Below are positions 12,014 to 15,558 of a DNA stretch of 36,262 nt, piece after piece; within the stretch, counting starts at the first letter, position 1; the number at the start of each line of letters is the position of its first letter. Origin of the DNA: Candidatus Heimdallarchaeota archaeon (GTDB lineage Archaea > Asgardarchaeota > Heimdallarchaeia > Heimdallarchaeales > Heimdallarchaeaceae). The notes beneath the pieces were generated by a model. The model was not told the origin of the DNA and made no database searches. It saw nothing but the letters and a program-made list of their open reading frames with translations. The translations under genes were made by a program, and so were the position numbers. The stretch is from positions 1-36,262 of the forward strand of contig BPTK01000002.1 of the NCBI GenBank assembly GCA_023705905.1, written 5' to 3'.

Positions 12014-12534
12014 TCTGTAACTCTGTAATAAACACAACTTACTAAACAAGTAGGGGAAACTTGAGGGTTTTTAATAGGAAAATACCCACAAACTATTGAT
12101 GGTAGAAGTGTTACGCGCAGAAGTGATGGAAACAACAGGTAAGGTTGCGAAAAAAGACCACTCAACTCTTTGTGATTGTGCCCTTTCATAAATTGATCAA
12201 ATTGCTGGAGTATGAAGCTGCAGAAGTAGGGATACAGGTGGAATTAGTAGATGAAAGTTACACCTCTAAATGCAGTTTCCTCGATAATGAGTTTCCCCAA
12301 AAATGCTCAAGGTACAAAGGGAAAAGAATCCAACGAGGATTGTTCCGTTCTGCACAAGGACAGTTGATCAATGCTGATGTCAATGCAGCGTTCAATATTT
12401 TACTTAAAAGCGATCCGCAAGCATTACCCAAACGTGATGTGGGCGGGGTAGGAGGGTACGTGATGTACCCACTCAGAGTGAGCTATCCAGCGATGAAACT
12501 CTAAGAAAGGTTGCAGTAACTACAGAGTTACAGA
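12014..12534. mobile_element. Remnant element bounded by a 14-bp inverted repeat enclosing the tnpB fragment
   Basis: tctgtaactctgta at 12014-12027 and its exact reverse complement tacagagttacaga at 12521-12534; the right copy overlaps a GTAACT-acag-AGTTAC hairpin (12516-12531) just after the tnpB stop. Confidence 0.5.
12145..12504 (+). pseudogene. TnpB (IS200/IS605-family OrfB) C-terminal remnant
   Basis: VPFHKLIKLLEYEAAEVGIQVELVDESYTSKCSFLDNE, KGKRIQRGLFRSAQGQLINADVNAAFNIL, GGYVMYPLRVSY match the TnpB C-terminus (RuvC-III ADxNxAxNI). The N-terminal two thirds are missing. Confidence 0.85.
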
Positions 12535-13784: not shown

Positions 13785-15236
13785 TTACAAGTCCATTTCT
13801 TTTAGTTTTACCTTAATGTCAGCTACTTTCTCCTTATTCAAAGTATTAAGTTTCCAGAAAACAAGTGCTCCAATTATAACTAGTATAGCTGGAATTAGTG
13901 CTAAATGGAAATTGATTCCCCATAGAGCTAGGTCTGTCTGAGTAGCTGCGTTAGGATCTGAATCGAAACCTGTTAGCTCATGTAGAGCCCAGAAGGATAG
14001 AGCTTGGACAGCAAAGGATAATCGTCCGAAAAATGCTCGAAAACCTAAGAATATCCCATCATTTCTTTTTCCTGTTTTCACAACTATTTCATCTATTGAA
14101 TCAGCCATAGCTGGAGTCATGATAAGCCAAAAGCCACCGAAACTCATTCCCCAAAATACCAAAGCGATAATGAATCCAATTTGACTACGAAGGAAAATCA
14201 TTGGGATGAAACTTGCACCAATTAGTAGGGCAGCTATCGTAATCATCTTTTGATTGTTTTGAACCCTTTTTATGAAGTATAGCCAGATTGGAATTGAGAT
14301 TAAAGCTCCTGCTAGCATGGCAGCAAAAATAGGTGTTGTTTTTGACACATCACCTAAGAAATATTTTCCAACGTAGTGAATACTTCCTGTTAGTGACATG
14401 GTAGCAGCTTGATAGAAGAAGAAAAGTAGAATAAAGGCAACGAAGTTTCTATGGGTAAAAGCTTTTCTTAACTGTTTGAAGAATCCTTCCTTTTCCTCAG
14501 TTTCAACGCTTTTCATGTACCGTTCAATCATTCTAGGAGTTTCTTTTACTCCAGGTATCATTGCAAAGATTAGTATAAAACCTGCAATAGAAAACACCCA
14601 GCCATTAGTGACAAAAGTAGACGAAGTACCATAGTCAACTATGAATGTGGGAAGCAAAGCTCCAGCGGCAATACCGAAAACCCCAATTACGATTGCAATG
14701 CTTGCAGCTTTGTTACGAACCTTATGACTTCTAAATTTATCAACAAAGGTACTCTGATAATTAACCTCCCAGATAGAGTAAAGGGTATCATACAAACATA
14801 TAGTCAACACCATCCAAGTAAAAACTGCACCTTGACTTGATCTTATAGAGGTAGGGACAGCAAATATGAGAACAAAGGAAAAGACCCAGACAAGTGCTCC
14901 AAAAATAATCCATGGAAAACGTCTTCCAAGTTTTTTGGAAAGAAAAGTTGGTTTCTCTGTAAGAAAACCAATAATAGGATCATTTACTGCATTCCAAATG
15001 GAGTAAATAACAATAGCAAGAGTAACCATCCATGTCGCCAAACCAAGTTCTGTCTCGAAATAAAAGAAAACAAGAGCACCAAAAGCACCAGTAAAGAATT
15101 CAGCTTGGAACTTTCCAATACCATATGAAGCCATTATCCCAGTAGATCGCAGATTAGACTTTGGTGAAGTATCAGATGATTCTTCATCAAAAGATGTGGA
15201 TTTAACAGAATCGTTTTCATTAACCATGGTTTTCAA
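13785..15236 (-). CDS. MFS transporter, GPH (glycoside-pentoside-hexuronide) sugar:cation symporter type
   Basis: About 12 TM segments; NDPIIGFLTEKPTFLSKKLGRRFPWIIFGALVW matches the GPH-family N-terminal motif. Confidence 0.85.
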   Translation of the reverse strand: MKTMVNENDSVKSTSFDEESSDTSPKSNLRSTGIMASYGIGKFQAEFFTGAFGALVFFYFETELGLATWMVTLAIVIYSIWNAVNDPIIGFLTEKPTFLSKKLGRRFPWIIFGALVWVFSFVLIFAVPTSIRSSQGAVFTWMVLTICLYDTLYSIWEVNYQSTFVDKFRSHKVRNKAASIAIVIGVFGIAAGALLPTFIVDYGTSSTFVTNGWVFSIAGFILIFAMIPGVKETPRMIERYMKSVETEEKEGFFKQLRKAFTHRNFVAFILLFFFYQAATMSLTGSIHYVGKYFLGDVSKTTPIFAAMLAGALISIPIWLYFIKRVQNNQKMITIAALLIGASFIPMIFLRSQIGFIIALVFWGMSFGGFWLIMTPAMADSIDEIVVKTGKRNDGIFLGFRAFFGRLSFAVQALSFWALHELTGFDSDPNAATQTDLALWGINFHLALIPAILVIIGALVFWKLNTLNKEKVADIKVKLKEMDL

Positions 15237-15293
15237 AAGATATAGTTTTTAAAAAAGCTTCTGCAAAAAATAAAGGTTTAAAAGAAAAAGGAA

Positions 15294-15401
15294 TGGTGCC
15301 CAGAGCGTGATTATCAACTTTCAGAACGCATCTGAAATGGTTCTTGAACACGCGACAACAGGATCTTCAGTCCTGCGCTCTCCCAGCTAAGCTATCTAGG
15401 C
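15294..15401 (-). tRNA. tRNA-Phe (GAA) with encoded CCA and an approximately 32-nt intron in the T-loop
   Basis: Minus strand: acceptor GCCTAGA / TCTGGGC + A + CCA (7 bp, one G-T); D-stem GCTT/GAGC; anticodon arm CAGGA-CTGAAGA-TCCTG (GAA); T-stem GCGTG/CACGC. 39 nt lie between the T-stem strands instead of 7. Removing 32 nt restores TTCAAAT and a 76-nt tRNA including CCA. Confidence 0.9.
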
Positions 15402-15558
15402 AACATTGTTCTATCTTTTGTTCTTAACAGTTCCATTAAAAGTTTTTTGTTCTATTTCCCTTTCTATTTACTATTATTATGTTGTATTTTCACTCTAGGT
15501 TAATTTTTTACAAATATTAACGTTTAATAGAGCCCAAGTTCTTTTCAACTTGAGAATT

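Follow-up and report, generated by a model that had tools for sequence, protein, structure and literature searches.

A 59/60 T-loop intron in a Heimdallarchaeota tRNA-Phe gene and its apparently mobile intron family

The tRNA-Phe(GAA) gene of a Heimdallarchaeota genome is interrupted within its T-loop by a 32-nt intron, which comparison with intronless orthologues places between positions 59 and 60. We consider it about 90% probable that the gene encodes a functional tRNA-Phe from which this bulge-helix-bulge (BHB) intron is spliced by EndA and RtcB, and that the intron family has spread by apparent transfer and loss. The window, i.e. the whole stretch of DNA analyzed (36,262 nt), is contig C2 of a 3.74-Mb genome (G000) that is ∼82% complete. 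The gene is laid out in the window as follows:

15294..15401, minus strand: tRNA-Phe(GAA) gene from G1 to the encoded CCA, intron included (read directly and with a tRNA model of the clade)
15366..15368, minus strand: anticodon GAA, positions 34–36 (read directly)
15349..15353, minus strand: 5' strand of the T-stem, GCGTG, positions 49–53 (read directly; covariation with the 3' strand)
15305..15309, minus strand: 3' strand of the T-stem, CACGC, positions 61–65 (read directly)
15435..15448, minus strand: putative promoter AAAAAA CTTTTAAT, BRE/TATA-like (comparison with congeners)
15275..15293, minus strand: putative terminator, T-rich TTCCTTTTTCTTTTAAACC 3' of the CCA (read directly, function predicted from sequence)

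Read directly, the gene comprises an acceptor stem (GCCTAGA/TCTGGGC), a D-stem (GCTT/GAGC), an anticodon arm (CAGGA-CTGAAGA-TCCTG), A73 and an encoded CCA, with the two T-stem strands GCGTG and CACGC lying 39 nt apart, and its parts form a complete cloverleaf once the intron is removed. The same arrangement was obtained with R1, a covariance model built from 23 tRNAs of the clade with insertions allowed, which aligned the full gene (15297–15401) at 63.7 bits (E=1.8e-14 in the genome) and assigned the insert to the T-loop; the initial annotation of the locus as a tRNA-Phe(GAA) with CCA and a 32-nt insert is thereby borne out. In addition, the T-arm including the insert folds at −14.4 kcal/mol, compared to −7.6 ± 2.3 kcal/mol for shuffled sequences, and the T-stem pairs across the insert at all five positions in every one of 25 distinct sequences. 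Three of these pairs show double-sided changes, and the overall covariation score was reached by none of 500 shuffles.

Under the conditions used here, this essential tRNA of the organism escapes two standard tools: the gene was not detected by ARAGORN run on the window, and the Rfam tRNA model gave no match at its gathering cut-off over the whole window, a local scan at the locus yielding 25 bits with a wrong 3' half. The tRNA sets of similar genomes may for this reason be under-counted. Elsewhere in the window, a SECIS_1 match at 15159–15229 (18 bits against a cut-off of 35) was taken as chance.

Two models together identify ∼46 tRNA loci in the genome. Model and sequence searches of the assembled ∼82% of the genome did not reveal an intact second tRNA-Phe gene, which the initial annotation had named as the finding that would speak against a spliced gene; the second exact match to the anticodon arm (G000:C43) is not a tRNA. 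Given an assembly of this completeness, the interrupted gene could in principle be a decayed or unexpressed copy whose intact counterpart lies in the unassembled part, a situation that we judge to be extremely improbable. The stems, the CCA and the promoter-like element are intact and conserved, on which grounds a pseudogene was rejected, and the same interrupted gene is present in 16 congeneric genomes. Moreover, a BRE/TATA-like element (AAAAAACTTTTAATGG) lying ∼40 nt 5' of G1 hardly varies between congeners, and an intact, conserved gene preceded by such an element is what would be expected of a functional tRNA-Phe.

The intron and its surroundings were delineated by comparison with orthologues and with R2, a model of the T-arm with its intron that was also used for the family search:

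15311..15342, minus strand: 32-nt intron AACCATTTCAGATGCGTTCTGAAAGTTGATAA at position 59/60 (orthologues without intron in tRNA-Phe, -Pro and -Tyr; 64.8 bits with R2)
15343..15348, minus strand: 5' exon part of the T-loop, TTCAAG, positions 54–59 (identical to the tRNA-Phe of G015, L046, and G012, L050)
15310..15310, minus strand: T60, at which the 3' exon starts and which is the third base of the 3' bulge (orthologue comparison)
15319..15337, minus strand: intron hairpin TTTCAGA-TGCGT-TCTGAAA, 7 bp (read directly; folding and family comparison)
within 15343..15348, minus strand: exon side of the BHB central helix, TTCA, positions 54–57 of TTCAAG
15313..15316, minus strand: TGAT, the intron strand of the central BHB helix (most relatives have TGAA)

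The exact junction had initially been regarded as ambiguous, with TTCAAAT proposed as the restored loop. Comparison of the Phe, Pro and Tyr orthologues now fixes the junction and corrects this loop sequence. The tRNA-Phe genes of G015 and G012, which lack the T-loop intron, read TTCAAGT (the G012 gene carries an anticodon-loop intron only, and its T-loop is uninterrupted); among congeneric tRNA-Phe genes, the uninterrupted T-arm reads GTGTTCAAGTCACGC and its interrupted counterpart GTGTTCAAG...TCACGC. Base 59 is a G in tRNA-Phe and an A in tRNA-Pro, -Tyr and -Trp, whether the intron is present or absent, and since this base follows tRNA identity regardless of the intron, the intron sits between 59 and 60. 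Excision of the 59/60 insert yields the exact intronless orthologue in each case, i.e. TTCAAGT in Phe and TTCAAAT in Pro and Tyr. Joining at 57/58 or 58/59 would likewise leave a legal 7-nt loop, of the common form TTCAAAT, but is very unlikely in view of the G59 (TTCAAGT) found in G015, in G012 and in tRNA-Phe genes of other families (L047, L049), of the exact fit of the Pro and Tyr introns to 59/60, and of the symmetric 3-nt bulges that are obtained for 59/60 only. By orthologue comparison, the T-loop intron is thus located at 59/60, and the predicted mature loop is TTCAAGT, joined as GCGTGTTCAAGTCACGC across G59–T60.

The hairpin described in the initial annotation is present, and the TCAA/TTGA pairing that it proposed is possible. 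Such a stable hairpin might be taken to suggest that the insert stays in the mature tRNA, giving it an enlarged T-loop and an odd structure; this is most improbable, as the relatives without an insert at this site have a normal 7-nt loop, retention would part the T54–A58 core from T60/C61, and an EndA with broad-specificity features is encoded (see below). A self-splicing group I or II intron was rejected on the basis of the small size of the insert (only 32 nt) and the lack of any Rfam intron match.

In most relatives, the exon–intron boundaries form a strict BHB in which a 4-bp helix (TTCA/TGAA) is placed between two 3-nt bulges, whereas the window copy, with TGAT instead of TGAA, has one U-U mismatch with T54. 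The relaxed BHB-like substrate proposed at the outset needs correction in this respect, the motif being a well-defined one from which the window copy deviates by this single mismatch. For the BHB and T-stem together, 98.6% of the cells are paired in 25 distinct sequences from four tRNAs, compared to 92.3 ± 0.8% after shuffling, the agreement of the central helix being partly built in because the pattern scan used for collection demanded TGR...TC, a preselection of which the BLAST matches are free. In the 25 distinct sequences, the covariation score is 0.177 (0.066 ± 0.010 shuffled), and double-sided changes occur in 18 cells (4.8 ± 1.5 shuffled), a signal that is lost when the partners are slid against each other. 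For the window copy, folding prediction favors a structure with AAC/GUU pairing (−14.4 kcal/mol) over the BHB (−11.1 kcal/mol), so that recognition would rest on stabilization of the BHB by the enzyme.

The hairpin core AGA-YGCGY-TCT (window 15333–15323) is almost invariant across the introns of different tRNAs, which is partly an effect of the search pattern, and G033, which belongs to another family, has a similar loop in a tRNA-Trp intron. Five bacterial matches of the collection pattern scan lie outside tRNAs and were discarded as chance.

Two genes of the EndA family (PF01974) are present in this genome and in most relatives, corresponding to separate catalytic (alpha) and structural (beta-like) subunits; in this genome, the alpha gene lies on G000:C48 and the beta gene on G000:C123. 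The alpha subunit, a protein of 183 residues, is closest to the EndA of Aeropyrum pernix (3p1z, E=5e-37) and retains the active-site Tyr, His and Lys, while the second protein carries by alignment an Ile at the position of the catalytic His, as expected of a beta subunit. Lysine K44 of the Crenarchaea-specific loop (CSL) has been tied to broad EndA specificity (PMC6379350, PMC12397907); this residue and P45 of the A. pernix protein align with K39 and P40 of the alpha subunit, and the lysine is found in all 21 members of the order whose loop was extracted. A positive residue is missing at CSL position 46, where A. pernix R46 corresponds to Q41 here and to an Asn in several congeners. Judged from these residues, the alpha subunit appears to be of the broad-specificity type. 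Together with the exact presence and absence of the insert in orthologues and the conserved BHB pairing, this supports the proposal, made when the locus was first described, of a non-canonical T-loop intron of the EndA type.

No RtcB gene was identified in the 82%-complete assembly, and the presence of this ligase in 34 of the 36 genomes of the order indicates that the absence is probably due to assembly incompleteness. The RtcB gene of one genome (L254, G003:C1:1674300-1677200) carries an intein-like insert of ∼500 residues after GFDIN, and the data suggest the same insert in G022, G023, G024, G025 and G026.

Using R2, we identified 34 members of the intron family in 20 of the 21 congeneric genomes, all at 59/60 and distributed over tRNA-Phe (16), tRNA-Pro(UGG) (9), tRNA-Tyr (5) and one each of tRNA-Trp, -Asp, -Asn and -Thr; this genome's own Trp, Asp, Asn and Thr genes have no T-loop intron. 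According to BLAST, the tRNA-Phe intron is present in 16 and absent from 2 of the 21 genomes, the gene not being found in the remaining 3. The site is filled in nine and empty in seven tRNA-Pro(UGG) genes, and filled in five and empty in 12 tRNA-Tyr genes, the filled and empty Pro and Tyr genes differing by exactly the insert. Elsewhere in the phylum, introns of more divergent sequence are located at 59/60 in tRNA-Trp (G033, G029), -Ala (G001), -Ser (G035), -Lys (G136/G138) and -Leu (G145, G180); a weak model match in G169 lies outside any tRNA. The initial expectation that a T-loop intron would be unusual outside thermophilic Thermoproteota is thus not upheld for this lineage, as at least one is present in 20 of 21 congeneric genomes, others are scattered in the phylum, and non-canonical tRNA introns have already been reported in Asgard archaea (PMC11291895).

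Closely similar introns in different tRNAs, combined with a patchy presence, characterize transposed introns, and both are observed here. The Pro and Tyr introns are up to 28/31 identical, whereas between species identity drops to 61% among the Phe introns and to 50% among the Tyr introns, the latter comprising two sub-types, TTCAGATGCG and TCTAGACGCG, at one site. This likeness across tRNAs and the two Tyr sub-types are hard to square with vertical descent and fit repeated insertion at a single site, so that the family looks, from these comparisons, as if it were mobile between tRNA genes. As regards origin only, the occurrence of 59/60 introns in different tRNAs across several families of the phylum would also agree with vertical descent, in which an early Asgard ancestor already had introns in each tRNA and losses followed. 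We regard such descent as unlikely, given that Pro–Tyr similarity exceeds that of same-tRNA pairs, that the two Tyr sub-types reside in different species, and that presence is patchy inside one genus. Candidate routes of transfer are reverse splicing, recombination and gene conversion, the last possibly of the whole T-arm between Pro and Tyr genes.

In the tRNA-Phe genes of G017 and G006 (L043, L044), the first bases of the intron repeat, exactly or nearly so, those of the 3' exon (TCTCG), so that the 5' T-stem strand could form a decoy T-arm with the intron; the repeat is possibly a trace of intron insertion. The tRNA-Phe of G032 (L055), from another family, contains an anticodon-loop intron and a different T-loop intron without the UGAA element.

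Taken together, these results suggest a model in which the precursor would fold into a BHB bounded by the T-stem and by the intron hairpin. Its central helix would be formed by exon bases 54–57 (UUCA) and intron positions −6 to −3, which read UGAU in the window copy and UGAA in relatives, and the 3-nt bulges on either side of the helix would be A58 G59^A and A A^U60 or, in the general form, A58 G59^N and N N^U60. Cleavage by (alpha-beta)2 EndA, a heterotetramer, would take place 3' of G59 and 5' of U60, and ligation by RtcB would yield the T-loop UUCAAGU, while the family may have reached this one site in seven tRNA species by repeated transfer and loss. With the nearly universal T-loop supplying the exon half of the BHB, an intron bringing its own UGAA should be spliceable from many tRNAs, and this fit would explain why one intron family occupies the same position in seven different tRNAs within the genus. 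As a more speculative extension, which we offer tentatively and consider less likely than not, the family may be a minimal non-coding mobile RNA element for the universal T-loop, in which UGAA would make insertion after position 59 of many tRNAs silent and the apical hairpin would aid propagation, e.g. by EndA/RtcB reverse splicing and subsequent cDNA recombination.

Further apparent introns were noticed among the tRNA genes of this genome. These include a tRNA-Lys(CTT) (L163, G000:C1:68306-68411), which the Rfam model did not pick up when the genome was searched and which has an apparent D-arm intron of ∼30 nt with TTAGGC/GCCTAA pairing, and a tRNA-Pro(GGG) (L164, G000:C24:27498-27602, minus strand) with an apparent D-loop intron, upon removal of which the cloverleaf closes. 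The 3' part of a second tRNA-Lys-like gene (L165, G000:C1:71332-71392 and upstream) contains an anticodon-loop intron; further introns may lie in the 5' half of this gene, which was not recognized. The window also contains the remnant of a TnpB-type transposon gene (12145–12504; Pfam Cas12f1-like TNB domain, E=7e-13) and, at the contig end (35464–36256), low-complexity repeats with a Ser/Thr-rich frame on one strand, which has no Pfam match, and a Leu-rich frame on the other.

Heimdallarchaeota are among the archaea closest to eukaryotes, whose tRNA introns are, to our knowledge, almost all located at 37/38. The present findings extend T-loop introns and apparent tRNA-intron mobility to Heimdallarchaeota, and the filled and empty states of identical sites in many close genomes provide a good natural data set on the gain and loss of archaeal tRNA introns.

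Introns at 59/60, transposition of introns in Thermoproteales and the intron-rich tRNAs of Atabeyarchaeia and Freyarchaeia are already known. Position 59/60 is listed among the non-canonical intron positions of archaeal tRNAs, with Crenarchaeota and Nanoarchaeota as rich sources (PMC4090602), and non-canonical tRNA introns have been reported in Thaumarchaeota (PMC8450103); a description of such introns in Heimdallarchaeota was not found in the main texts of the papers searched. With the known 59/60 introns the present one shares position, BHB form, short length and its presumed role as an EndA substrate, but it differs in its Heimdallarchaeota host, in the conserved apical core and in having tRNA-Phe as the commonest host gene. 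In Atabeyarchaeia and Freyarchaeia, 92–95% of tRNA genes contain introns, non-canonical ones included, according to the main text of PMC11291895; as far as that account goes, the Asgard phylum, the non-canonical positions and several introns per tRNA are common to both cases, whereas here a minority of the tRNA genes of a different lineage carry introns. The two-gene enzyme resembles the (alpha-beta)2 EndA of A. pernix with its Crenarchaea-specific loop (3p1z/3ajv; PMC6379350, PMC12397907), to which the alpha subunit is closest by sequence, with K39–P40 in place of K44–P45 and the active-site His retained; it differs in being an Asgard protein, here described from its gene, in which Q takes the place of the charged residue 46. 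For Thermoproteales, introns that are nearly identical between different tRNA isoacceptors have been described (Fujishima 2010, as summarized in PMC4090602), and going by that summary the two situations share near-identical introns in different tRNAs of one clade, while the family detected here is confined to one site, 59/60, at which the conserved T-loop itself provides the exon half of the BHB. Overall, what appears to be new, as judged from genome comparison, is a site-specific and apparently mobile T-loop intron family in Heimdallarchaeota.
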